Assembly (NCBI GenBank): GCA_032881465.1
Contig: CP126168.1
Location: forward strand, 2,170,001 to 2,234,000
Origin: Parvibaculaceae bacterium PLY_AMNH_Bact1
GTDB lineage: Bacteria; Pseudomonadota; Alphaproteobacteria; Parvibaculales; Parvibaculaceae
Reading direction: 5' to 3'
Length of the DNA stretch: 64,000 nucleotides
The first letter of the stretch is position 1, and the number at the start of each line of letters is the position of its first letter. The notes below the pieces were generated by a model. It was not told where the DNA came from. It searched no databases and worked only from the letters and a program-made list of their open reading frames with translations. This document shows, in pieces, positions 32,442 through 56,615 of the stretch. The translations under genes and the position numbers were made by a program.

Positions 32442-33227
32442 ATGCAGTCGCTTAGCATCGCCGCCTCAGGCATGATGGCCCAGCAGCTCAATGTCGAGGT
32501 GATCTCGAATAACGTCGCTAACATGAGCACAGCAGGCTTTAAACGCCAGAAGGCCACATTTCAGGACTTGATGTATCAAGACCTGAAGCGCGTCGGCTCA
32601 ACATCCTCGGATTCAGGAACCATCGTCCCCGCTGGGATTCAGGTCGGCATGGGTGTCCGCACAGCAGCCGTGACGCGCATTACAGCGCAGGGCAATCTCG
32701 ACATTACAGAGAATGACTATGACCTTGCTGTGCAAGGACGCGGCTATTTCCGCATCGAGATGCCAACTGGTGACGATGCCTATACACGCGCAGGCAATTT
32801 TAGCACCAGCGCAACCGGTCAGTTGGTGACGACGGACGGATATACGGTCCAGCCGGGCATTACCATCCCTTCCAATGCGATTGACGTTTCGATCAACTCC
32901 CAAGGCCTTGTCCAGGTAACACTCGCCGGACAGACAGACCCGCAGACCGTTGGACAGCTGGAACTGGCTGCTTTCCAAAACCCGGCTGGTCTCGATCCGC
33001 TTGGTGACAACCTATTCATGGAGTCAGCCGCCAGTGGCACACCGACAACGGGAACGCCTGGGGCAGATGGGTTTGGCTCCCTGCTGCAAGGCTACCTTGA
33101 GACGTCAAATGTCGACTCTGTCGCTGAGATCACCAACCTGATCACCGCACAGCGTGCCTATGAAATGAACGCGAAGATGATCACCGCGACAGACGAAATG
33201 CTGTCGGTGACCTCAAACCTCCGCTAA
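32442..33227 (+). CDS. flgG: Flagellar basal-body rod protein FlgG
   Basis: A 261-residue distal rod protein from ATG 32442 (MQSLSIAASGMMAQQLNVEV), with AGAAAGGA upstream. An in-frame extension to 32337 overlaps flgF and is not homologous. It shows NNVANMSTAGFKRQKATFQD, the central VQGRGYFRIEMPTGDDAYTR, and the C-terminal LETSNVDSVAEITNLITAQR. It lies 43 bp after flgF. Confidence 0.97.
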   Translation: MQSLSIAASGMMAQQLNVEVISNNVANMSTAGFKRQKATFQDLMYQDLKRVGSTSSDSGTIVPAGIQVGMGVRTAAVTRITAQGNLDITENDYDLAVQGRGYFRIEMPTGDDAYTRAGNFSTSATGQLVTTDGYTVQPGITIPSNAIDVSINSQGLVQVTLAGQTDPQTVGQLELAAFQNPAGLDPLGDNLFMESAASGTPTTGTPGADGFGSLLQGYLETSNVDSVAEITNLITAQRAYEMNAKMITATDEMLSVTSNLR

Positions 33228-35821: not shown

Positions 35822-36253
35822 TCAGCCTGTCTGACCATATTTTGCAAGCTCGACCCTAGCCCTAAGTTCTATGTGATCGAGAACATTGGCCAGTTCAGGG
35901 TCATCAATCTCAGAACGCTCTGTGCTTACATGCGACAGCAGCTTCTGCAGCTTATCGGCGGGTAGCTCTCCCGCCAGCAAACCAAGTTTGAGTTCGTCCA
36001 ACACATCAAGCGTTTCTGAGGCATTTGCAATAGCCCGTCGTCGCCCCGTCATTGGGTCATCCGCAGCGTCCACACCTTGGACCGCCAAGAGAGAATGAAT
36101 AGACGCCAGAGAGGAGACGCCGCCAGCAGCCTGGCTCGCTTGAGGGCCACCAGATCCAAACTCCGGCGAAAATACCGCACCTGCCCCACCCGCACCGGCC
36201 TTTTTGGCTGGTGCTTTGGAGGGAGCTGCGCGCTGTGACGAAACGATCTTCAT
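35822..36253 (-). CDS. fliX: Flagellar assembly regulator FliX
   Basis: A 143-residue protein from ATG 36253 (MKIVSSQRAAPSKAPAKKAG). It has the FliX C-terminal domain: MTGRRRAIANASETLDVLDE, LKLGLLAGELPADKLQKLLS and DHIELRARVELAKYG. In Caulobacter FliX couples assembly to the enhancer-binding protein FlbD and so controls sigma-54 flagellar genes. It is divergent from flgI, as in Caulobacter. FlbD itself is not in the window. Confidence 0.88.
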   Translation of the reverse strand: MKIVSSQRAAPSKAPAKKAGAGGAGAVFSPEFGSGGPQASQAAGGVSSLASIHSLLAVQGVDAADDPMTGRRRAIANASETLDVLDELKLGLLAGELPADKLQKLLSHVSTERSEIDDPELANVLDHIELRARVELAKYGQTG

Positions 36254-36570: not shown

Positions 36571-36783
36571 ATGCGTTCGTTCGTCAAATGGATTTCCAAG
36601 ACCCGTCCAGCCTTGCTCAGCTTGGTTGGAACGCTTTTGGTAACCTCGGGATTGCTGCTGCCCACCAGCGCAGAGGCAACTTCTCGCATTAAAGACATCG
36701 CAGATGTTGAAGGTATCCGGGAAAACCAACTCATCGGCTATGGCCTTGTTGTTGGCCTTGATGGCACAGGCGACTCGTTGAAC
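36571..36783 (+). pseudogene. flgI: Truncated flagellar P-ring protein FlgI (5' 71 codons)
   Basis: ATG 36571 begins a FlgI precursor with a signal peptide (about residues 1-34, ending SAEA) and the conserved mature start [20 protein letters not shown] then [14 protein letters not shown]. The match stops exactly at 36783, where the left end of the IS3-family element begins. The frame ends inside the IS at 36822. FlgI is normally about 370 residues, so ~300 are missing. The remainder of flgI does not reappear beyond the IS; instead flgL sequence on the other strand follows. A functional P-ring protein cannot come from this locus. Confidence 0.9.
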
Positions 36784-36812
36784 TGTCCGTCGTCAGGGTT
36801 TTTGGAACAGAT
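36784..36812. repeat. IS terminal inverted repeat, left
   Basis: 29-bp terminal repeat, 23/29 identical to the inverted right end at 38267-38295; the mismatches are at positions 4, 5, 7, 16, 17 and 19. Confidence 0.85.
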
Positions 36813-36857
36813 GGCTGCGTAGTTTAGCGGAGAGATTGGCTCATCTGTTGGTTGATA

Positions 36858-37838
36858 TTAGGCAGCTTGATTGCGGTATTGCAAACGCCGTTGTCTGATT
36901 GTGTTTTGTTTGATCCTTTCTCTTTCTAGCAAGATGGTCTGACCGCGACCGAAGTAAACATCAGCCGGTGTTAGGTTTCCGATGCTTTCATGGTAGCGGT
37001 GGTGATTGTAGTGCTCAACGAAGCGTTCAATGCTGGCGTTGAGATCACCCGGCAGGAAGTAGTTCTCCAGCAAGATGCGGTTCTTGAGGGTTTGATGCCA
37101 GCGCTCGATCTTTCCCTGGGTTTGTGGATGGTATGGAGCACCACGAACGTGATCCATACCTTGATCATTGAGCCAGTCGGCCAGTTCTGCTGAGACATAG
37201 CTGGCCCCATTATCAGACAGCAGTCGTGGCTTGTGACGAACAGCCACCTGATCAAACCCGGATGCTTGTAAGGCCAGCTCCAAGGTGTCCGTGACATCGC
37301 TCGTCTTCATCGTGGTGCAGAGCTTCCAGGCAATGACATAGCGTGAGAAGTCATCCAGGATCGTTGAGAGATAATACCAGCCCCAACCAACGATCTTGAT
37401 GTAAGTAAAGTCAGTCTGCCACATCTGGTTGATTGCGGTCGTCTTATCACGGAACTCGTTGGCCGCTTTGATCACGATGAATGCAGGACTAGTGATCAGG
37501 TCATGTGCCTTGAGGAGCCTATAGACACTGGCTTCTGACACGAAGTAGCGCTGTGTATCAATGAACCTCACAGCCAGCTCGCGTGGCGACAGCTCTGGTT
37601 CCTCCAACGCAAGGTCAACAATCTGTCGCCGGATATCGTCTGGAATGCGGTTCCAGACCCGCGCAGGCTTTGGCGCTTTATCTTCCAATGCATCTGCACC
37701 GCTCGTCAGATACTTATCGTACCAACGATAGAACGTGGTGCGAGGAATGCCGAGTTTGTCGAGAGTTTGTTTAGCTGACAGGTGTGATTGCTCCACCATT
37801 CGTATTATCTCAAGCTTCTCGGATGCGGGGTACCTCAT
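36858..37838 (-). CDS. IS3-family transposase OrfB
   Basis: A 326-residue DDE transposase. An N-terminal helix-turn-helix (LSAKQTLDKLGIPRTTFYRW) precedes an rve integrase core. The acidic triad is visible as TDFTYIK, SDNGASYVS and GKIERWHQTLK. The start overlaps the OrfA stop by 4 bp (ATGA), and the frame is -1 relative to OrfA. It can be made either by reinitiation or as an OrfAB fusion by slippage at an A7 run (37867-37873). The coding frame appears intact. Confidence 0.93.
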   Translation of the reverse strand: MRYPASEKLEIIRMVEQSHLSAKQTLDKLGIPRTTFYRWYDKYLTSGADALEDKAPKPARVWNRIPDDIRRQIVDLALEEPELSPRELAVRFIDTQRYFVSEASVYRLLKAHDLITSPAFIVIKAANEFRDKTTAINQMWQTDFTYIKIVGWGWYYLSTILDDFSRYVIAWKLCTTMKTSDVTDTLELALQASGFDQVAVRHKPRLLSDNGASYVSAELADWLNDQGMDHVRGAPYHPQTQGKIERWHQTLKNRILLENYFLPGDLNASIERFVEHYNHHRYHESIGNLTPADVYFGRGQTILLERERIKQNTIRQRRLQYRNQAA

Positions 37839-38209
37839 TCGATGTCCTCCCCATCTCCGATCATGCTTTTTTTGAGAAGGCGAAGCTCAAGCGCTTGCTC
37901 AGCGACAACCTCTTTCAGATCACGCGCCACACGGCGCAGACCCTGTACTTCGCTGGTGTTCGCTTCACGGGCAGTGTCGCCTGCCAACCGCTTGCGCCCG
38001 GCCTCCATGAACTCCTTTGACCAGGAGTAATACTGGCTCTGGGCAATGCCTTCCTGGCGGCACAGCTCGGCAATTGTGTCGTCGCCTCGTAAGCCCGCCA
38101 ACACAATCCTGATCTTGTCTTCAGACGAATAGCGTTTGCGTGTTTTGCGGCGGATATCCTTCACCGTGCGATCTGCAGCATCGGTATGGCGTTCGGGTGT
38201 ATCTCTCAT
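37835..38209 (-). CDS. IS3-family transposase OrfA
   Basis: A 124-residue DNA-binding subunit. It has the family pattern KRYSSEDKIRIVLAGLRGDD, TIAELCRQEGIAQSQYYSWS, and a C-terminal leucine zipper (LRRVARDLKEVVAEQALELR). ATG 38209 is preferred over the adjacent ATG 38212 because GAGGAG then lies 6 bp away. The A7 run near its 3' end is a probable -1 slippage site leading into OrfB. Confidence 0.92.
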   Translation of the reverse strand: MRDTPERHTDAADRTVKDIRRKTRKRYSSEDKIRIVLAGLRGDDTIAELCRQEGIAQSQYYSWSKEFMEAGRKRLAGDTAREANTSEVQGLRRVARDLKEVVAEQALELRLLKKSMIGDGEDIE

Positions 38210-38266
38210 CATTCACTCCTCAATGGTGAAGATGAACCAGAATCTCTCCCTTAGGAAATCAGCCTA

Positions 38267-38295
38267 ATCTGTTCCATAGGCCCTGACGGCATACA
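38267..38295. repeat. IS terminal inverted repeat, right
   Basis: 29-bp right end, inverted relative to 36784-36812 (23/29 identical). It abuts the truncated flgL at 38296. Confidence 0.85.
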
Positions 38296-38693
38296 ATGTG
38301 TCGCCCTTCGAGTTCGGTATTCAGCAATGATGCGATCTCGTCAAACTGAGAAGCAGCAGACAATTGTAATTGGGTTTGACCAGCGCCGGTGAGATCAAAT
38401 GACGTCGTCAGAGAATCTGTACGAAGCGTCGATGCGATTTCATCCATCCTGGTCAATGCTGTTGACTGCACGCCAAGCCGCAGGTTCACCAGCTCCATCG
38501 TTTTTACATAACCTTCGAGCGAACTGATCTGATCGCGAAGGGAAAGAACAACAGAAGCATCGGATCCAAGCCCACCATAGGTCTCAGCCTTCTTGCCGGT
38601 CACCAATTGTCGACTGAGATCATCCTGCGTTGACTTCAACGCATTGACTTCGTCCTGCATCCGCAATGTTCTGGCGAGGGATGAAATTTCCAT
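38296..38693 (-). pseudogene. flgL: Truncated hook-filament junction protein FlgL (5' part)
   Basis: ATG 38693 opens a flagellin-like N-terminus (RMQDEVNALKSTQDDLSRQL, VTGKKAETYGGLGSDASVVL, ASLLNTELEGRHI), matching FlgL for about 130 residues. The match ends at 38296, where the IS right end begins. Reading continues 12 codons into the IS and stops at 38259. FlgL is normally about 300 or more residues, so the C-terminal half is missing. It lies 19 bp downstream of flgK in the flgE-flgK-flgL order. Confidence 0.88.
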
Positions 38694-38712: not shown

Positions 38713-40581
38713 CTAGCGGCCGATATTCAGCATGATTTGCATCAGTTCCTGAACAGTGGTCATCACCCGCGCATTGGCGCTATAGGCTGTTTCAAGAACC
38801 AATAAGTTCGACATTTCCGTATCAATATCGACACCAGCATCAGCGTCATATTGTGACTGCAACGTGTCGCGAATAATTTTGAATGAAGAGACGGCATTCT
38901 CCGCATTAGCGGCCTGCGATGCTTGATAGTCAACAAACCGCCTAGCAAATGAGTCAATTGACCCTTCGAACGGCGCCGAGGAACTGCCAATGCCCACGTC
39001 AGCCGCATAACTGCGAACATCGTTTGTCAGTCGCTCAATCAGGTCAAGCGGGCGCGTTGGATCACCAACATCGGTCGTTGGCGCTGTATTGTATACAACC
39101 AGAAGCGAACTATCAGCGACGATAGCATCGTTCACCCGGATACGCTGAGCGATACCCGTCTTTTGTCCACCATTGTCAAGGCTGTTGGAGTAAATCGCCT
39201 GACCATTGCCGTCGACAAACAAAGCCATGCCCGTCCCTGCATCGGTAAGAGATGCAGGTGTCGTCGTCGTGGACAAGGAATTGATATCCGACGTAGCGCC
39301 AGCCCCGTCATCTACAAACCTCAGCACTGTGCCGGCCGGGTTAGACACAACAACCGCCGCAGGCAGGGCTGCATTCAGATCTGTTACAATGGTCCCAATG
39401 GGTTGCGTCCAGTCAATCCCAATGACGGTGTCGTTTGGGTTGTTAGTAGCCGTATTGCTCAGAGGTAAAACACTGGGGTCTTCAACCTTGACGATGGTTA
39501 CATTCGTCGTTGTTCCGCCGATCGTGTAGCTGAGATTAATTGTATTGCCCGAAAGCATCCCAGCGGTATCAACTTCAAAACCCGTTGCCGCTCCCGCGAC
39601 AACAGCTGTACCGTTCGTTGTTTCTTCCGACAAAGACAGCATCAATTCAGAAGCCAGCTCATCAAGCTGAGATTGTGCTTCAGTAAGCGTGTTGTCTCTG
39701 AGCTCGATAAGCGCCGCAATCTCCCCAGATCGGAAAGCACCAGCTGCTATCAGGTCAACTGACGTTGATCCCGCGGTTAGAGAGATGGTCCCGACCGTTC
39801 TTTGAGTTGGGTCGGTGCTAAAGACAGACGTGGAATCCATCGACGTGCGCTCGTCAAACGAAAGCTCAGCGGCAGCTGAGTCAAGCAACGCAAAGCCGCC
39901 ACCTGTGAAGAGGCTGACCGCTCCATCCGACCGAGATACCACATTGATATCCATCAGCTCAGCAAGCCGGTCAATGGCGCTATCGCGCTGGTCCGCAAGA
40001 TCGGCTGTATCACCAGTCGTTGCACCTGCACGAACAATTTGCTCATTGATCGTAGCAACCCGCTTCAGCAGAACATCTGCCTCTTCAATCGCGGCACCAA
40101 TGCCCGCCTCGGCTTCGAGGCGCAGGCTTTGAACCAGGTCGGACATGCTGTTAAGAGAATCCGCGAGATCGTCTGCTTCATTGAGCACGTTTGCACGGAT
40201 AGCAGCATTCTCAGGCGTCGTTGCCATTGCCTGCAACGCGTCCGTCAACTCTGCTAAGCGCGAAGAAAGTGCAACGCCTGATTCTGACGACCCCATAGCC
40301 GTATCAATTCGCGATAGATAGTCGGCGGCTGTCTGAGCTGCAATAGTATCTGCTTTAGCGACACGCAACTGCTGCTGTTGCAGGAGATCAATATCGCGTT
40401 GCGCGGCTGAGTAGGCAACGCCGATGCTCCGCCCGTCAACCAACTGACTGTGTGTCGTCAGCGTTTTACGCGTGTAACCAGGTGTCCCGGCATTCGCGAT
40501 GTTGCGCGAAACCACATCAATGCCTGCCTGCGTGGCATTGAGGCCGCTGATTGAAGCATGGAGCGCATTAGTGAGTGTCAT
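38713..40581 (-). CDS. flgK: Flagellar hook-associated protein FlgK (HAP1)
   Basis: A 622-residue HAP1. The N-terminal D0 is LTNALHASISGLNATQAGID and VVSRNIANAGTPGYTRKTLT. A long variable Thr/Ala-rich middle follows, and the C-terminal NAENAVSSFKIIRDTLQSQY with LLVLETAYSANARVMTTVQE completes the helical end. It appears full length. It connects the hook to FlgL at the hook tip. It lies 53 bp downstream of flgE and just before the truncated flgL. Confidence 0.95.
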   Translation of the reverse strand: MTLTNALHASISGLNATQAGIDVVSRNIANAGTPGYTRKTLTTHSQLVDGRSIGVAYSAAQRDIDLLQQQQLRVAKADTIAAQTAADYLSRIDTAMGSSESGVALSSRLAELTDALQAMATTPENAAIRANVLNEADDLADSLNSMSDLVQSLRLEAEAGIGAAIEEADVLLKRVATINEQIVRAGATTGDTADLADQRDSAIDRLAELMDINVVSRSDGAVSLFTGGGFALLDSAAAELSFDERTSMDSTSVFSTDPTQRTVGTISLTAGSTSVDLIAAGAFRSGEIAALIELRDNTLTEAQSQLDELASELMLSLSEETTNGTAVVAGAATGFEVDTAGMLSGNTINLSYTIGGTTTNVTIVKVEDPSVLPLSNTATNNPNDTVIGIDWTQPIGTIVTDLNAALPAAVVVSNPAGTVLRFVDDGAGATSDINSLSTTTTPASLTDAGTGMALFVDGNGQAIYSNSLDNGGQKTGIAQRIRVNDAIVADSSLLVVYNTAPTTDVGDPTRPLDLIERLTNDVRSYAADVGIGSSSAPFEGSIDSFARRFVDYQASQAANAENAVSSFKIIRDTLQSQYDADAGVDIDTEMSNLLVLETAYSANARVMTTVQELMQIMLNIGR

Positions 40582-40634: not shown

Positions 40635-42035
40635 TTACCGCTTCATATTGAGTGTTTCGGTGATCATCTCATCTGCTGTCGTGACAATTCGCGTGTTGGC
40701 GGAGTATGCCTGCTGAGTAATGATCAGCTTGGAGAACTCATCCGCAATATCGACATTGGAACCTTCAAGGGCTGCCGCAACGATCGCGCCACTGCTGCCT
40801 GTCAGAGCTTCACCTGATCCTTGTGTGGATGCAAAAGCACCGCCATCCATCTTCTGGAGCTCATTCGGATCGTTAAAGCGCACAACAGTCACCTCAGCGA
40901 GATCAACAGACTTCCCGTTCGAATAAGTTCCAACGATACGGCCATCGTTCGACACAGCCACCTCAAGCAAAGAACCAGATGCAAATCCATCTTGGTCCAG
41001 CGTGTTCACGGTGACATTTCCGTTGGTGTCTTCAAACTGCGTGATGTTGGATGTGCCGTGATCAAGTGTCACGTTGCCAAGATTGTTGCCGTTAATTGTG
41101 AGGTTCGTGATTGTTGCCGACGAAACCGCAGGTGCCAGCTGTCCGTTAGCAAAAACATAGTCCTGACCGATATTGTTCCATTTCGCAGCGGCACCGGTCG
41201 CGGTGTCGCTGGTCTTGTAGAACATGTTCCACGTGTCGCTGTCCGCCAGACCTGCAGGGCCATCGCCATCCGTGTTTTCAACCTTCGCCCAGCGAATTTG
41301 CACCTGAAGGGGTGCGCCCAAATCATCATAAACCGTAATGGAGCCGCCAGCGAGAGACCGATCAAGGAAGAGAGCTTCTTCGCCTGCCTGAACGAACCCA
41401 TTGCCTGCACCGCCGGTAACCGTTGTCGGGTCATTGGCAAATGTGCCCGCAAGCAGCAATTCGCTGCCCGCAATGGTCGTGTCTGAGTTCACTGTCTCTG
41501 GGTAAGCCGGCAAGTTGGCTTCGTAATCGATCACAGTGGTCAGGTTCGCGTTCAAGAAAGACCGGTTGATCTGAATGGCAGAGGGCACGTCCCCCACAGG
41601 GTTACCGGTTGCGATATCAATATCGACCCCCTGCAGATAGTAGCCCGAGCTGTTCACAAGATAGCCGTTCCGGTCCATCTCAAAATCGCCCTGGCGCGTG
41701 TAACGGTCTACGTCGAGAAGAACCGGCTGGTTGTCGAGTGAGCCAACAGACTCGGAGACGACGAAGAACCCTTCACCATTGATGGCCATATTGGTAGCAA
41801 CCGAGCTGGCATTGATCGCGCCCTGCACATTGTTTGTATAAGCGGGCTGCGCATAGGTTGTACCAGGAAGATGGAAGTTTTGACCGCTCGATGTCACGGA
41901 ATCATAAAAGCTCGTGTCTGTTCGTTTGAAACCGGTCGTCTGCGAATTGGCGATATTGTCCGAAATATGGGACAGCGCTGTGGCTTGTGCCCGAATCCCT
42001 GAAATGGCTGTCGACATCGCACCGTTAAAGCTCAT
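40635..42035 (-). CDS. flgE: Flagellar hook protein FlgE
   Basis: A 466-residue hook protein from ATG 42035 (MSFNGAMSTAISGIRAQATA), chosen because the longer frame to 42098 has no family match. It shows SDNIANSQTTGFKRTDTSF, the FlgE D2 region with SITVYDDLGAPLQVQIRWAK, and the C-terminal EGSNVDIADEFSKLIITQQA. The upstream region carries a strong sigma-54-type promoter. It is the first gene of flgE-flgK-flgL. Confidence 0.96.
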   Translation of the reverse strand: MSFNGAMSTAISGIRAQATALSHISDNIANSQTTGFKRTDTSFYDSVTSSGQNFHLPGTTYAQPAYTNNVQGAINASSVATNMAINGEGFFVVSESVGSLDNQPVLLDVDRYTRQGDFEMDRNGYLVNSSGYYLQGVDIDIATGNPVGDVPSAIQINRSFLNANLTTVIDYEANLPAYPETVNSDTTIAGSELLLAGTFANDPTTVTGGAGNGFVQAGEEALFLDRSLAGGSITVYDDLGAPLQVQIRWAKVENTDGDGPAGLADSDTWNMFYKTSDTATGAAAKWNNIGQDYVFANGQLAPAVSSATITNLTINGNNLGNVTLDHGTSNITQFEDTNGNVTVNTLDQDGFASGSLLEVAVSNDGRIVGTYSNGKSVDLAEVTVVRFNDPNELQKMDGGAFASTQGSGEALTGSSGAIVAAALEGSNVDIADEFSKLIITQQAYSANTRIVTTADEMITETLNMKR

Positions 42036-49646: not shown

Positions 49647-52600
49647 CTAGTGAAAATCCCGACTTTTTGGCATAAGACGCGCAGCGCGGAGCTGACGTTC
49701 ATAAAGCTTCTGTAGTGACCGTGTCCGTGGATCTTCACCGGGACGTTTCACCTCATCTGCATGCGCAAGCCCATTGTCGCCAATCTCATATTGGCCGTCC
49801 GTAAGGCCCGCCAGTTCATGGGTCCAGTCCTCAAGCCAGTCAGATACGACGTGGATCACTCCTTCTGCTTTCTGCACCCGTCCACGGACGCCCAAGAACC
49901 GCGACTGCAAAACCGTTCGTCGATAGCGCTCAAAAATCTTCGGCCAGATAATGATGTTCGCAACCCCTGTCTCATCTTCAAGAGTGGCAAAAATCACCCC
50001 ACTTGCGGTGCCGGGCCGCTGACGCACCAGAACAAGTCCAGCCAGATTAACCCGCGCACCATCACGAATAGCATCATCAGCCAGTCGCGCATTTGTGACG
50101 ACCCGCCGCGCTTCCAGTTGCGCACGCAAGAAGGAGACTGGATGCGCCTTTAAAGAAAGGCGCATGGTCGCATAATCATGCACCACCTGTTCACCGAGAG
50201 GCATGGCAGGTAAATGCACGTCCGGCTCTTCCTGAAAGCCTGCCTGTTCCAAATGCTCAAAAAGCGGAAGCGCCGCAGGCGCCTTCCCATTCTGGCCTTT
50301 CTTATGCTGCCCCCATCCCCCAAGCCCCCGCACCCCCCACAGCGCATCACGACGGTCCAAACCGATCGAGCGGAAAGCATCTGCATTGGCGAGTATTTCA
50401 ATCACTCGGGGGCTGAGGCCAGTCCTCAGCCAAAGATCGCGAACCGAGTCATAGCCATGTAATCTCTTGTCTTCGACCAACTCCGCAGCTTCTTCCCGAA
50501 ACCCTTTAATATGACGCAGCCCCAATCGCACCGCGCATGTATGACGGGGCTTGGTTTTCCAGCGTTTGCGATGAGTTATCTGCCCATTGGCTTGCGTCGA
50601 CGAAATAGTTTCTCCCAAAGGCTCCAACGTTGAATCCCAGTCAGATGAATTCACATCCGCGGGCAGCACCTCAACCCCATGCTCCTTCGCATCTCGCACC
50701 AATTGGGCCGGGGCATAAAAGCCCATGGGCTGGGAATTGAGGATCGCAGCACAAAACACGTCGGGGTAATGACACTTGAGCCAGGCGGACACATAGACGA
50801 GCAGCGCAAAGGACGCCGCATGGCTTTCCGGGAAGCCATAATCTCCAAAACCTTCAATCTGTTTGAAACAGCGTTCCGCAAAATCCTGCTCATACCCCCG
50901 GGCCACCATGCCGCCGATGAATTTGTGCTCAAAATCATAGATGGTGCCATTTCGCCGAAATGTTGCCATCGCCCGGCGCAACCCGTCCGCCTCCGGTGGC
51001 GTAAACCCTGCGGCCACAATCGCAATTTTCATGGCCTGCTCCTGAAAGAGCGGGACCCCCATGGTCTTGCCCAAAACCTCCCTCAATTCATCAGAAGGGA
51101 ACTCGACAGGCTCCTCACCATTTCGCCGTCGCAGATAGGGATGCACCATGTCCCCTTGAATGGGCCCGGGCCGCACAATCGCGACCTCTACCACCAGGTC
51201 ATAAAAGGTTCGAGGTTTAAGCCTTGGCAGCATGGACATCTGTGCCCGGCTTTCCACCTGAAAGACCCCGACCGAGTCCGCCTGGCACAGCATGTCATAA
51301 ACAGCCGGATCATCCTCCGGAACCGTGCGCAACCCATGTCGAATACCGTAATGGGTTTCCAGAAGATCAAACGCTTTGCGGATGCAGGACAACATGCCAA
51401 GCGCCAGCACATCAATTTTCAGAATACCCAGTGTGTCGAGATCATCCTTGTCCCATTCAACAATGGTGCGGTCTTCCATCGCCGCGTTCTGGATCGGCAC
51501 CACTTCTTCCAGTGCCCCGCGCGTGATCACAAACCCACCCACATGTTGAGAAAGGTGCCGTGGAAACCCGATCAATTCACCAGCAAGGGAAAGAGCCATC
51601 GCAATCAACGGATCATCCGGGTCAAGCCCTGCCTGCCGCACTTCGTCAGCGGCAACACCTTTGGATGACCAGCCCCAGGTCATCCGCGCCATGGCTCCCA
51701 CCACATCTTCAGAGAGACCCATGGCCTTACCCACTTCACGGATCGCACTTCGGGCCCGATAGGTGATCACCGTCGCCGCAAGTCCTGCCCGGTCCCGGCC
51801 ATATTTCTGGTAGATATACTGGATGACCTCCTCGCGACGCTCATGTTCAAAGTCAACATCAATGTCCGGCGGTTCATTACGCTCTTCCGAGATAAACCGT
51901 TCAAACAGGAGATCTACTTTGACCGGATTAACCGCCGTAATGCCGAGGCAATAGCAAACAGCCGAGTTCGCCGCCGACCCACGTCCCTGACAGAGAATGT
52001 GCTGCGACTCTGCAAAGCGCACAATGTCGTACACGGTCAAAAAGTAAGGTGCGAACTTGAGACGGTGAATGAGCTCAAGCTCCCGCGTCAGCGTGTCCCG
52101 TAACTTGTCCGTAATACCGTCCGGAAATTTTTCGGCCACACCGTCCCAGGTGAGCTTCTCCAGAAGTGCCTGAGGCGTCAGCGCGTCATCAAACACATCA
52201 TCGGGATATTCATAAGCCAGCTCATCAAGAGAAAACGTGCAACGCTCAACAATCCGGGCGGTCTCGGAAACGGCTTCTTCATACCCTCGAAAGATGTGAA
52301 CCATCTCAGTCGCACCTTTCAAATGCCGTTCCGCATTCGCCTCCAGACGAAAGCCTGCCTCATGAATGGTGCAGTGCTCACGAATACAGGTCATCACATC
52401 CTGCAGTTGGCGGCGCTCAGGCGCGTGATAGAGCACATCATTCGTTGCGACCAGAGGCACCTCCGCCACCCTAGAAAGACGAGCGAGTTCTTTCATCCGT
52501 CTTTTGTCGTCTCCTGTATAAAGACGGTTCAGCCCAAGCCACACCTGATCTGGAAAACGTGCGGACAGATCACAGAGGGAAACCTCAAATGCTTTCCCCG

Positions 52601-52985
52601 GTGTCGACGGCGCCATGGCGATGAAGCACTGGCCCTCGCCATAGGACGTAATATCGTGGAGCGTGAGGTAACACTCACCCTTGGGCGCGCGGCGATTGCC
52701 CAGCGTGAGCAATCGGCAAAGTCGCGCATAGGCCGGGCGGTCCTGCGGGTAGGCAATCACTTCAAACCCATCTTGGGTGATCAGCCGCACACCTGGTAGA
52801 AACCTTAAGCCCTGGTCTTTTGCCGCTTTATGCGCACGCACAATGCCCGCAAATGTATTGCGATCCGCGACACCAATAGCTGAAAGCCCGAGCTCGATTG
52901 CCTGTGCGCCAAGCTCATCCCCATGGGACGCACCCCGCAGAAAACTGAAATTGCTGGTAATCGCCAGTTCCGCGAAGGAGGTCAT
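49647..52985 (-). CDS. dnaE2: Error-prone DNA polymerase DnaE2 (ImuC)
   Basis: A 1112-residue C-family polymerase. The N-terminal PHP domain begins FAELAITSNFSFLRGASHGD. The catalytic core has DIDVDFEHERREEVIQYIYQ and the neighbouring YGRDRAGLAATVITYRARSA, and the C-terminal OB fold has VIFATLEDETGVANIIIWPK. DnaE2 is the catalytic part of the ImuA-ImuB-DnaE2 SOS mutasome, doing translesion synthesis. Its start overlaps the GIY-YIG stop by 4 bp, and its Shine-Dalgarno (GGGAGGAG) lies within the repeat region. The imuB SOS box should control it. Confidence 0.95.
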   Translation of the reverse strand: MTSFAELAITSNFSFLRGASHGDELGAQAIELGLSAIGVADRNTFAGIVRAHKAAKDQGLRFLPGVRLITQDGFEVIAYPQDRPAYARLCRLLTLGNRRAPKGECYLTLHDITSYGEGQCFIAMAPSTPGKAFEVSLCDLSARFPDQVWLGLNRLYTGDDKRRMKELARLSRVAEVPLVATNDVLYHAPERRQLQDVMTCIREHCTIHEAGFRLEANAERHLKGATEMVHIFRGYEEAVSETARIVERCTFSLDELAYEYPDDVFDDALTPQALLEKLTWDGVAEKFPDGITDKLRDTLTRELELIHRLKFAPYFLTVYDIVRFAESQHILCQGRGSAANSAVCYCLGITAVNPVKVDLLFERFISEERNEPPDIDVDFEHERREEVIQYIYQKYGRDRAGLAATVITYRARSAIREVGKAMGLSEDVVGAMARMTWGWSSKGVAADEVRQAGLDPDDPLIAMALSLAGELIGFPRHLSQHVGGFVITRGALEEVVPIQNAAMEDRTIVEWDKDDLDTLGILKIDVLALGMLSCIRKAFDLLETHYGIRHGLRTVPEDDPAVYDMLCQADSVGVFQVESRAQMSMLPRLKPRTFYDLVVEVAIVRPGPIQGDMVHPYLRRRNGEEPVEFPSDELREVLGKTMGVPLFQEQAMKIAIVAAGFTPPEADGLRRAMATFRRNGTIYDFEHKFIGGMVARGYEQDFAERCFKQIEGFGDYGFPESHAASFALLVYVSAWLKCHYPDVFCAAILNSQPMGFYAPAQLVRDAKEHGVEVLPADVNSSDWDSTLEPLGETISSTQANGQITHRKRWKTKPRHTCAVRLGLRHIKGFREEAAELVEDKRLHGYDSVRDLWLRTGLSPRVIEILANADAFRSIGLDRRDALWGVRGLGGWGQHKKGQNGKAPAALPLFEHLEQAGFQEEPDVHLPAMPLGEQVVHDYATMRLSLKAHPVSFLRAQLEARRVVTNARLADDAIRDGARVNLAGLVLVRQRPGTASGVIFATLEDETGVANIIIWPKIFERYRRTVLQSRFLGVRGRVQKAEGVIHVVSDWLEDWTHELAGLTDGQYEIGDNGLAHADEVKRPGEDPRTRSLQKLYERQLRAARLMPKSRDFH

Positions 52986-53392
52986 GGCACCGTATCTCCT
53001 CCCTCATCCTGAGGAGAGGTCGAAGACCTCGTCTCGAAGGATGCGGTACCCTCACCCTGCTTCGAGACGCGCGCTAACGCGCGCTCCTCAGCATGAGGCT
53101 GAGAGGAGACAGAACTGCGTTTTGAAAGAGATTTCAGTAGATTGAAGTCACCGACAATGAGCGCTTCCTTCTTTGCCCGACTCCAACCTTTAAGCTGACG
53201 CTCAAAAGAAATCGCATCAGCTATTCGCTCGAAGGTTTCGGAGAAGACCAAAGCAACAGGACGCCGTATCGATGTGTATCCATCAAATTTTCCTGCGTTA
53301 TGCTCCGCAACTCTCTTCTCCACAGACAACCGTGTAAGGCCAACATAGTAAGCACTATCCGAGCAGCGCAGGATGTAGACAGACGCACTCAC
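52982..53392 (-). CDS. GIY-YIG domain nuclease-like protein with repeat-derived tail
   Basis: A 136-residue protein when started at GTG 53392, which overlaps the imuB stop as GTGA; ATG 53416 is an alternative adding 8 residues. The GIY-YIG module spans about residues 4-85 (SVYILRCSDSAYYVGLTRLS, KFDGYTSIRRPVALVF, FERQLKGWSRAKKEAL), close to the YhbQ/UvrC-N type. The last ~40 residues (from QPHAEERALARVSKQ) are encoded by a palindromic repeat pair. It is between imuB and dnaE2, so it is likely SOS-expressed. Confidence 0.82.
   Translation of the reverse strand: MSASVYILRCSDSAYYVGLTRLSVEKRVAEHNAGKFDGYTSIRRPVALVFSETFERIADAISFERQLKGWSRAKKEALIVGDFNLLKSLSKRSSVSSQPHAEERALARVSKQGEGTASFETRSSTSPQDEGGDTVP
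53002..53098. repeat. Paired palindromic (BIME-like) repeat within the GIY-YIG 3' end
   Basis: Two inverted units. Unit A (53002-53043) has arms CCTCATCCTGAGGAG and GTCTCGAAGGATG with a central palindrome AGGTC-GAA-GACCT. Unit B (53050-53098) is the same plan inverted, with arms CCTCATGCTGAGGAG and GTCTCGAAGCAGGG and a GCGCGC-rich centre. They are shared by the reading frame of the GIY-YIG protein and the leader of dnaE2. Confidence 0.75.
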
Positions 53393-55005
53393 CCAAACAC
53401 CCCATGCACGAACCATTTCGGATTTGCCGTCTCACGACCAAAGAGACCGTCCCGATAGAGCCAGAAGCGACGGCCTTGTGCATCTTCCACACGGTAATAG
53501 TCCCGCACATGTGCCCGCCCCTGAGACGCGTTGCGATGACGCCACCATTCAGGCGCAATCCGCTCCGGCCCTTCTGAGCGGGCCACATGATAAGTCACCC
53601 GCCGCCAGCGGAACTGGCGCGGTGGACCATCCGGCACTTCTGCAATTGTCTCCACCGCTTCCGCACAAGGCAGCATGCGAAGGGGCCGCCCTATCCGCTG
53701 ACGTTCTTCCACTCGCCAGTCATGGGGCTCTCGCTCTTCTTCCAAAGGACGTATACCTGCCACTGCCGGAATAAACACAACAGCATTTTCCGGAATATGG
53801 CTTTCGCGCGGTTCAAACCGCCCCACCCGGTCAAATCCCAGACGGTTACCCAACCGGTCCACCAGAAAGCCAAGATCAGCCGGACGGTGTTTAAGACGGC
53901 TCTTCTTCACCTCCGTAATATCAGCTTGTGTATGAGCGATCGGGTCCGCCGCCGTCACATGAAGCACCATCGCTTCAATCCCCAGACCAATTTCCAGGCC
54001 CTGGCCAAACCCGGTCAGTCGCTCAGAAAAAAGAGCCGCGATATGAGCACCATCATCACTGGGCACACTGGTCCCCACATCAATGCTGAACCTCACACCA
54101 TCGGTTCGAAACAGGTGAAGCTCCAAGCGACGCGCACCCTGATCAGCCTGGTGAAGCAAAGGCACCATCTCATTACTCAGAAGACGAATGGCCTGTTCAA
54201 TATCCGTGAGCGCCACCAGCCCTTCCGCAAGCTGAAGACGGGTACGAAATGGCACCAGGGGTACATCAGGAGAGATCGGTTCACTGGCGCGCCCCAAAGC
54301 CTGATCAAGACGCGCGGCTAAAACCTTCCCAAAGCGCGCCACCATCGGCGCCCGAGGGAGCTGGTGCAAGTCCCGCACCTGCTTCATACCCAATCGCGCC
54401 AGGTCATCCACCATGGCCATATCCAGCCGGAGAGCACTCAATGGCAAAGGATCAAGTGTCGCGCGGACTTTGTCTTTTGCAACAAGCGTCACGGCGCGCG
54501 CGCCATAGCGGGTCACTGCCCAGGCGGCTCCTGGGTAGGGCGCCACACCGACCCGTGCTGACAGACCAAAGCCGGCCAGACGTTTCACCAGATCCTCCAC
54601 CAGACGTGCTTCCCCACCAAAAAGATGAGCGCATCCGGTAATGTCGAGAAAGATACCGTCAGGCTCTTCATGTACCGGGGTCGGGTCCGGTGCCGTCCAG
54701 GGCGTATAGCGTCCACACCAGTCGCTCAGCTGTTTGAGCGCCCGGATATCTGCGTGGGGATCCTCCCCATGCACCCCAAGCCCTGAGGCAACCGCCAGGG
54801 CGTCCGCCAAAAGCTGCCCGCGAGACACGCCCAGTCCCCGCGCCTCCCTGTTAAGCGCAACAACGCGCTCTCCTCCCTGTCGCGCACCGCGCAAGGCCAG
54901 AGGGGCGCTCGGATCAAGCTCACTCGCACGTGCCAGCCGATAAACCGGCCAATCAGGGAGCCAGAGAGACAGGATCCGCTTTTCTGTTGAATTTTCAGAC
55001 GACAC
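53389..55005 (-). CDS. imuB: Mutasome Y-family polymerase-like protein ImuB
   Basis: A 538-residue Y-family polymerase homologue that serves as scaffold in the SOS mutasome. It begins RILSLWLPDWPVYRLARASE, where a true polymerase would have the catalytic acidic residue. The palm region shows PDGIFLDITGCAHLFGGEAR, and GLSARVGVAPYPGAAWAVTR is the conserved DinB-like stretch. The C-terminal ~150 residues are the ImuB-specific tail. An SOS box lies 47-61 bp upstream. It is followed by the GIY-YIG gene (overlap) and dnaE2. Confidence 0.93.
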   Translation of the reverse strand: MSSENSTEKRILSLWLPDWPVYRLARASELDPSAPLALRGARQGGERVVALNREARGLGVSRGQLLADALAVASGLGVHGEDPHADIRALKQLSDWCGRYTPWTAPDPTPVHEEPDGIFLDITGCAHLFGGEARLVEDLVKRLAGFGLSARVGVAPYPGAAWAVTRYGARAVTLVAKDKVRATLDPLPLSALRLDMAMVDDLARLGMKQVRDLHQLPRAPMVARFGKVLAARLDQALGRASEPISPDVPLVPFRTRLQLAEGLVALTDIEQAIRLLSNEMVPLLHQADQGARRLELHLFRTDGVRFSIDVGTSVPSDDGAHIAALFSERLTGFGQGLEIGLGIEAMVLHVTAADPIAHTQADITEVKKSRLKHRPADLGFLVDRLGNRLGFDRVGRFEPRESHIPENAVVFIPAVAGIRPLEEEREPHDWRVEERQRIGRPLRMLPCAEAVETIAEVPDGPPRQFRWRRVTYHVARSEGPERIAPEWWRHRNASQGRAHVRDYYRVEDAQGRRFWLYRDGLFGRETANPKWFVHGVFG

Positions 55006-55051
55006 CGAGCTAAACCACTGAAATATATAATTAAACAGAGATAGACAGAAT

Positions 55052-55066
55052 GGAACAAAATAAGAA
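55052..55066 (-). promoter_or_regulatory. LexA (SOS) box upstream of imuB
   Basis: On the minus strand GTTC-N7-GTTC (GTTCTTATTTTGTTC), 47-61 bp upstream of the imuB ATG. It sits in the 142-bp divergent gap with a small lipoprotein gene (ATG 55148), so it could repress both directions. Confidence 0.82.
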
Positions 55067-55147
55067 CATTGAAGTGTGCCGGAAACTGTGACTGAAGGCG
55101 AGTCAGTTTTCGCGTATGCTTAATGGGTGTTTTGTTTGGAGGCCCGT

Positions 55148-55405
55148 ATGACCTGTTTGAAATCCGTTCTCGCTCTCAGCATCACTGCTTTATTGCTCGC
55201 CGCCTGCTCCACCGCTGAGGATCACGCCCGAGAACAAGCACGGCTTGATCGCATAGATGATCAACACTGCCGAGAGCTGGGCTTTGAACCAGAAACCGAG
55301 CCTTATGGAAACTGCCGATTGAAACTGAAGGAAGTTCGAGCCTCACAAAAAGCCCCGAACCATCCAAACTTCGGTGTGGGGGTTGGCATAGGGATTGGAT
55401 TGTGA
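55148..55405 (+). CDS. Small putative lipoprotein (1 of 2)
   Basis: An 85-residue protein from ATG 55148. The signal peptide ends in the lipobox LLAAC (lipid-attached Cys about residue 20). The mature part has CRELGFEPETEPYGNCRLKL followed by KEVRASQK, and a short Gly/Val tail. It shares C-x2-LGF-x-(5-8)-G/A-x-C-x-L-x-L-(R/K)E-(I/V)R with the next gene, so the pair are paralogues. Function not recognised. It is divergent from imuB across the SOS box. Confidence 0.7.
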   Translation: MTCLKSVLALSITALLLAACSTAEDHAREQARLDRIDDQHCRELGFEPETEPYGNCRLKLKEVRASQKAPNHPNFGVGVGIGIGL

Positions 55406-55408
55406 ACC

Positions 55409-55696
55409 ATGCGAGCCCTTGCCATAGCCTTATGCATTACCGGTAGCCTTGCCCTAAGTGCCTGCACAACACCTGAACAGCGTGCGTCAGCGGCTGCCGC
55501 CCAACGCAATGCAGACGAAGCAGAATGCACGTCCCTTGGCTTTCAGTCTCAAACAGAAGGTTTTGCGGACTGCCTCTTACGCCTGCGGGAGATCCGAAGC
55601 GAAAATGCAAAAACGCGCGCGCTGAACAATGCCCGCCGCGACCCGTTCTGGCCCTGGTATCGATCGCGTTACAGATATCCTTATCGCTATTGGTAA
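55409..55696 (+). CDS. Small putative lipoprotein (2 of 2), paralogue of the preceding gene
   Basis: A 95-residue protein with the lipobox LALSAC (Cys about residue 19). Its core ECTSLGFQSQTEGFADCLLR then LREIRSENAK aligns with the previous gene. The tail is rich in Arg, Tyr and Trp (RDPFWPWYRSRYRYPYRYW). The gap to gene 1 is 4 bp, so they are co-transcribed. The pair lies between imuB and imuA, opposite to both. Function not recognised. Confidence 0.7.
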   Translation: MRALAIALCITGSLALSACTTPEQRASAAAAQRNADEAECTSLGFQSQTEGFADCLLRLREIRSENAKTRALNNARRDPFWPWYRSRYRYPYRYW

Positions 55697-55770
55697 TAAG
55701 CGCTTCCAGGTGAAGTGGCCCCGGTTCACCGCCAAAAGATATGGGCGGAAGCGCGACCAACATTACAAAG

Positions 55771-56601
55771 TTACGTTCCGTATACGGAGACCTTTTCTGA
55801 CACGGGAAGTGACGCGGGGACAGAAGGCTGATCATCTCCTCCCCGATCTTGGTCAGACACGCTGGAAACAAAACTCCCCACACACGCATCCCAGGCAAGG
55901 TCTGACAGGAAGGGCCGTCCGCCTTTGCACTTCTCTAAGTCTACCTGCCAGCTGGGCCGGTCAATGGCGCGCAGACTACCCTCTTCCACTGTTGATGCTG
56001 CCGACACACACCAGCGTGTGAGCGCGGCACTGGGGCTTGCAAGCTCCCCAAACCCGCGCATCAGAATAAGGGGGGTGCTTGCATCTTCTGCTGCCAGGTG
56101 AAGTCGCCTGCTGGCGCGCAAATTAAAATGCCGGGACGTCGCCGGCACTTCACCAATAACTGCGGCAAACACACCAGCCCGAACACATTCCTCCAAAGCC
56201 CATAACATGTCCGGCTCCCGGGCCGGGTTCACCAGCAGAAGACGGCTTGGGTCAATGCCAAACCCTGCGAGACCCGGTCCATAGAGTGCCCCCATGTCAT
56301 AGGCGCCCCAGCTTTGCTGACACCAGGCGATCAGCCCCTTCCCGCTTGGCGCACCAGTCGCAAAGGTCGCACGCGTCGCTAAAGCCGCCGCAAACCCGAT
56401 GGCCGCTCCCATATCCCCGTAAGACGCAGCCCGCACCTCATGCACACCTCGACGCGCGAGACCACCGCCCGGCAGCTGCCTGTCCATAACATCCAGACCG
56501 AGCTGAAATCGCCCCTCCTCCTCTTGAAAAGGTGGGGTTTCCAGCGCCGCAATCTGCGCCCGCAGACCGGCCATCAGCTCTGTTTTCTTTAGGGACTGCA
56601 T
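55771..56601 (-). CDS. imuA: SOS mutagenesis protein ImuA
   Basis: A 276-residue RecA/SulA-like protein, the partner of ImuB. ATG 56601 (MQSLKKTELMAGLRAQIAAL) is chosen over a TTG at 56613. Typical ImuA features are LGLDVMDRQLPGGGLARRGV, HEVRAASYGDMGAAIGFAAA and LLLVNPAREPDMLWALEECV. It is 15 bp downstream of its own SOS box. It is separated from imuB by two opposite-strand lipoprotein genes, whereas imuA and imuB are usually adjacent. Confidence 0.9.
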   Translation of the reverse strand: MQSLKKTELMAGLRAQIAALETPPFQEEEGRFQLGLDVMDRQLPGGGLARRGVHEVRAASYGDMGAAIGFAAALATRATFATGAPSGKGLIAWCQQSWGAYDMGALYGPGLAGFGIDPSRLLLVNPAREPDMLWALEECVRAGVFAAVIGEVPATSRHFNLRASRRLHLAAEDASTPLILMRGFGELASPSAALTRWCVSAASTVEEGSLRAIDRPSWQVDLEKCKGGRPFLSDLAWDACVGSFVSSVSDQDRGGDDQPSVPASLPVSEKVSVYGT

Positions 56602-56615
56602 ACCACTAGCCAAAT

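Follow-up and report, generated by a model that had tools for sequence, protein, structure and literature searches.

A complete insertion sequence in place of a flagellin locus between truncated flgI and flgL genes in Parvibaculaceae bacterium PLY_AMNH_Bact1

The closest described parallel is Xanthomonas fuscans subsp. fuscans 4834-R, in whose finished genome a complete ISXfu2 replaces 34 flagellar genes (33 kb) and which is non-motile in soft agar (PMC3826837). The locus analyzed here, in Parvibaculaceae bacterium PLY_AMNH_Bact1, likewise carries a complete insertion sequence (IS) in place of a contiguous flagellar block, which in X. fuscans includes rod/ring, hook, and filament genes. It differs from the X. 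fuscans case in the IS, in the bacterial class, in the smaller size of the block, and in being known from sequence alone. The flgI-flgL case is a further instance of a known replacement of flagellar genes by an IS, for which X. fuscans provides a near-identical precedent. IS150 deletions of up to 48.9 kb without target duplication have been recorded in the Lenski experiment with Escherichia coli (PMC11708052). The present locus resembles these in having an IS at the deletion junction and no target duplication, but in the Lenski lines the order of events was proved by a time series, whereas here only the end state is available. The Burkholderia mallei lineage is regarded as non-motile, and IS407A is a member of the IS3 family. 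IS407A lies in fliP of B. mallei (PMC4897507). There too an IS breaks a flagellar gene, but a single gene is interrupted and no flagellin cluster is deleted. Caulobacter has flgI and fliX as well as flagellin, flaF, and flbT genes. In comparison, the same kinds of genes are concerned here, with the flagellins and their regulators deleted along with parts of flgI and flgL.

PLY_AMNH_Bact1, a marine bacterium of an alga-associated type, belongs to the GTDB genus Mf105b01 of the Parvibaculaceae, and the window, the whole 64,000-nucleotide stretch that was analyzed, covers positions 2,170,001 to 2,234,000 of its 3,741,076-bp genome. A reading of the open reading frames (ORFs) at 49647-56613 of the window points to a cluster of two polymerases, DnaE2-like and ImuB-like, and an ImuA-like protein, and we take this set to be the usual damage-induced mutagenesis cassette. 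The features around the rearranged flagellar locus are as follows (window coordinates):

35822 to 36250, minus strand: fliX, intact, divergent from flgI.
36571 to 36783, plus strand: flgI 5' stub, codons 1-71 of about 383 (Pfam FlgI; aligned with intact flgI of relatives over residues 1-71).
36783/36784: left deletion junction, flgI/IS (from sequence comparison with three relatives).
36784 to 38295, minus strand: IS element of 1512 bp, IS3/IS481 type, with ends TGTCCGTCGTCAGGG / TGTATGCCGTCAGGG; one of three identical copies.
36858 to 37838, minus strand: orfB of the IS, 326 amino acids (aa), helix-turn-helix (HTH) and rve integrase core.
37835 to 38212, minus strand: orfA of the IS, 125 aa, HTH_Tnp_1.
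38295/38296: right deletion junction, IS/flgL (about 12.77 kb lost between both junctions relative to three relatives).
38296 to 38693, minus strand: flgL 5' stub, codons 1-132 of about 493 (Flagellin_N only; aligns to residues 1-133 of the flgL of a relative).
38713 to 40581, minus strand: flgK, intact.
40635 to 42035, minus strand: flgE, intact.

The flgI stub retains a signal-peptide-like start and reads from M1 to N71, and the flgL stub reads from M1 to H132; in each, the frame stays open for another 12 codons of IS sequence and then meets a stop. The FlgI model has a single match in the whole genome, namely, the flgI stub, over about 33 to 34 model positions. Comparison of the IS copies fixed both break points. 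The shared sequence of all three copies stops at the same bases, which in the window are 36784 and 38295, so that the flgI match to 36783 and the flgL match from 38296, which the sequence-only reading had placed directly against the IS, proved exact to the base.

Three relatives of the same genus (G001, G002, and G003; 96% identical in FlgK) have flgI and flgL in convergent orientation across about 12.8 kb, as do three genomes of other genera of the family. Measured by codon-level coordinates in three relatives, the distance between the positions that correspond to the two break points is 12768, 12771, and 12764 bp (±2 bp). In G003 the segment contains, in order, the rest of flgL, flaF, a flagellin gene, flbT, a second flagellin gene, a second flaF-type gene, a third flagellin gene, genes for two tetratricopeptide repeat (TPR) proteins, an FlgN-like protein and an FlgJ-like rod-binding protein, and the rest of flgI. 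The FlgN-like assignment is weak and below the cut-off, and the middle flagellin was called from its close match to the neighboring flagellin rather than from its own scan. Besides the remainders of flgI and flgL, the segment thus holds ten whole genes (FlgJ-like, FlgN-like, two TPR, three flagellins, flbT, and two flaF-type). The order flgI-flgJ-flgN-TPR-TPR-flagellins-flbT-flaF-flgL was found in G001, G002, G003, and G005, the last with no second flaF-type gene found, and also in G010, G012, and G015, members of other genera of the family with about 30 to 77% protein identity and apparently one flagellin fewer; the contig of G006 stops inside the segment. Because the intact order is common to the same-genus genomes and to three genomes of other family genera, it is taken to be ancestral.

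None of this material was recovered elsewhere in the genome of PLY_AMNH_Bact1. When the 12.85-kb segment of a relative was searched against the genome, only a 56-bp match was obtained, and this came from the flgI stub. Flagellin_N had a single match in the whole genome, the flgL stub, and no flagellin was found; FlbT had no match, while the FlbT model, like that of FlgI, does match in Caulobacter. No second copies of flgI or flagellin genes were found elsewhere in the genome. A complete IS therefore stands at the exact junction of two once-separate loci, and the segment between them is present in relatives and absent here. On the genome sequence the rearrangement is a deletion of about 12.8 kb, proved by the missing gene halves. 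The sequence-only reading had held that the DNA between flgI and flgL was deleted at the IS and that the 3' part of flgI, any flgJ-like gene, and the 3' part of flgL were gone from this place; the relatives bear out the former, and the latter extends to the whole genome. That reading had also allowed for complete second copies of flgI and flgL elsewhere and for 3' ends lying beside another IS copy, and the genome was searched for both and yielded neither. Its expectation that the rest of the gene set was kept did not hold, since the flagellin, flbT, flaF-type, FlgJ-like, FlgN-like, and TPR genes were lost as well. The deletion is larger than was then supposed and removes the filament in addition to the P-ring and the hook-filament junction.

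The genome (3.74 Mb) holds three copies of the 1512-bp IS that are 100% identical to each other, the other two lying on the minus strand at 155,000-156,511 and 67,578-69,089. The element has overlapping orfA and orfB, a DDE (rve) transposase, and TG..CA ends, as in the IS3 family; the two reading frames overlap at ATGA, and an A7G run upstream is a possible -1 frameshift site. The transposase of IS481 family members is encoded in a single ORF, and a plan of two ORFs with an orfA of the IS3 type departs from this. The earlier label of IS3 was partly upheld: OrfB scores above the cut-off of the NCBIfam IS3 model (193 bits against 160) and OrfA is IS3-like by model comparison, but the best-scoring model for OrfB is that of IS481 (206.5 bits), even though this score is below its cut-off of 224.

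Members of the IS3 family generate target duplications of 3 to 5 bp. No direct repeat of 2 to 30 bp surrounds the window copy (flanks GAAC and ATGT), and none of the three copies in the genome has a target duplication in this range. An exchange of flanks among the three copies by mutual recombination was considered and rejected, because no pairing of their flanks yields a duplication. Among relatives of the IS on plasmids (about 70% identity), duplications of 8 to 9 bp flank four copies from Bradyrhizobium elkanii, and a 29-bp repeat flanks one copy; the remaining copies examined have none, except for a single 2-bp match. The element and its relatives therefore depart from the 3 to 5 bp of the IS3 family, and the 3- to 4-bp duplication against which the locus was originally judged was the wrong yardstick. 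Copies of this element commonly lack a duplication even where no deletion is known, and the lack of one lends a rearrangement little weight; the case for a deletion is made by the absent gene halves and by comparison with the relatives.

With its IS3-type orfA, an OrfB that scores best with the IS481 model, and mixed duplications, the IS group is intermediate between IS3 and IS481 and may merit recognition as a separate group. The second copy (155000-156511) cuts a 466-aa recombinase-like ORF with a DUF6538 and a SAM-like domain; the catalytic domain is absent ahead of the IS, and the ORF just past it has no Pfam match. This site may be another one-sided deletion. The third copy edges an island of about 29 kb (67150-96460) that is absent from G002, and at the corresponding place G003 has a relative that shares 69% identity with the IS. 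That these elements form a distinct two-ORF group between IS3 and IS481, often moving without duplication and tending to delete adjoining DNA, is an idea we consider rather unlikely; it is drawn from the absence of duplications at all three copies, the gene truncated by the second copy, and the 29-kb island edged by the third.

A single IS at the junction of two genes without duplication is the product either of adjacent deletion or of recombination of one copy with another. We favor one insertion followed by adjacent deletion, to which we assign a probability of roughly 60%, because there are only three copies of the IS in 3.74 Mb. A single copy of this low-copy-number IS3/IS481-type element would have inserted into flgI or flgL, after which the transposase would have acted intramolecularly on the same chromosome, linking an end of the IS to whichever of the two genes had not been entered. 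The adjacent deletion would have removed about 12.8 kb, namely, the ten genes and, on either side of them, the 3' part of flgI or flgL. In the Lenski experiment, all 14 of 14 deletions at IS150, an IS3 family member, adjoined an IS already at that position (PMC11708052). The end state seen in this genome, in which neither flgI nor flgL is left otherwise intact with the IS inside it, is compatible with one insertion or with two.

Homologous recombination between same-orientation IS copies in flgI and flgL, looping out 12.8 kb and leaving a hybrid IS, would give exactly the structure seen (one complete IS, the flanks of two sites, and no duplication), and the identity of the three copies would make such recombination easy. 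We nevertheless hold this route to be doubtful, since the IS would have had to enter flgI and flgL independently, at sites 12.8 kb apart, when the genome has only three copies, and no trace of a second copy was found at the flgI/flgL locus. With the copy number this low, two independent insertions in the same orientation at this distance are a priori less probable than one (about 2% by a rough count for four copies). It is quite improbable that the IS inserted and deleted in a single event, e.g., into a double-strand break under repair. Such a one-step route has been put forward for movements of IS5 and IS481 that brought large rearrangements without duplication (PMC11708052), and the lack of duplications at all three copies here would suit it, but documented cases are few, and the outcome here would look the same as after an adjacent deletion in two steps.

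The collapse of repeats such as IS copies of 1.5 kb is a well-known assembly error, and the assembly was judged from its finished sequence. We consider it very improbable that two IS copies were collapsed and the segment between them dropped: the assembly is a single 3,741,076-bp contig (100% complete, 0.02% contamination), each of the three identical copies stands between flanks unique to it and hence the 1.5-kb repeats were bridged, and the record contains no sequence for a flagellin, a full FlgI, or FlbT. The SSU model had no match in the record, perhaps through masking, and thus gives no gauge of assembly quality. An inversion, which the sequence-only reading had offered as an alternative, or a translocation can be dismissed, as the other gene halves and the missing 12.8 kb are nowhere in the genome and the stubs keep the order and orientation that the relatives share.

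Elsewhere in the window, the flagellar genes align with their counterparts in the relatives over the full length and have no internal stops; a flag on fliL was traced to an over-long TTG start. Decay of the remaining flagellar genes was considered and set aside, given the lack of stops and the fact that private amino acid changes are no commoner than in G001 (130 versus 148). The flgG gene (32442-33227) has 16 private amino acid changes in 260 residues versus 0 to 1 in three relatives; these are scattered and conservative, look allelic and unlike decay, and possibly reflect an allele acquired through recombination. Apart from the two stubs, no flagellar gene left in the window is damaged, and the three IS copies do not differ from one another; the loss therefore looks recent, and slow decay might not show yet.

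The P-ring that surrounds the rod is formed by FlgI, the hook-filament junction by FlgL, and the filament by flagellins, while FlbT and FlaF act on the flagellins. We infer that the cell makes no P-ring, hook-filament junction, or filament, and without FlgI the hook should not cross the outer membrane normally. FlhA is single and intact in the genome, so that no second flagellar system is present to compensate for the loss. With FlgI, FlgL, and the flagellins lost, no working flagellum is expected, and the strain is very probably non-motile. A further member of the family, G007 (100% complete), has no FlgK match and appears to be another family lineage without flagella.

What emerges is the loss of an entire flagellin locus in one or two steps, which left intact every other flagellar gene that was examined. 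A survey of gene presence based on flgE, flgK, fliP, or flhA would list the strain as flagellated, almost certainly in error. Members of the genus Mf105b01 are found with microalgae in culture; they include "Alpha proteobacterium Mf 1.05b.01" from a Breviolum culture (PMC10915500) and a complete genome from a Cymbomonas culture (PMC10675990). If sister strains retain the locus, they and PLY_AMNH_Bact1 would form a clean natural pair for testing motility in the association between alga and bacterium.
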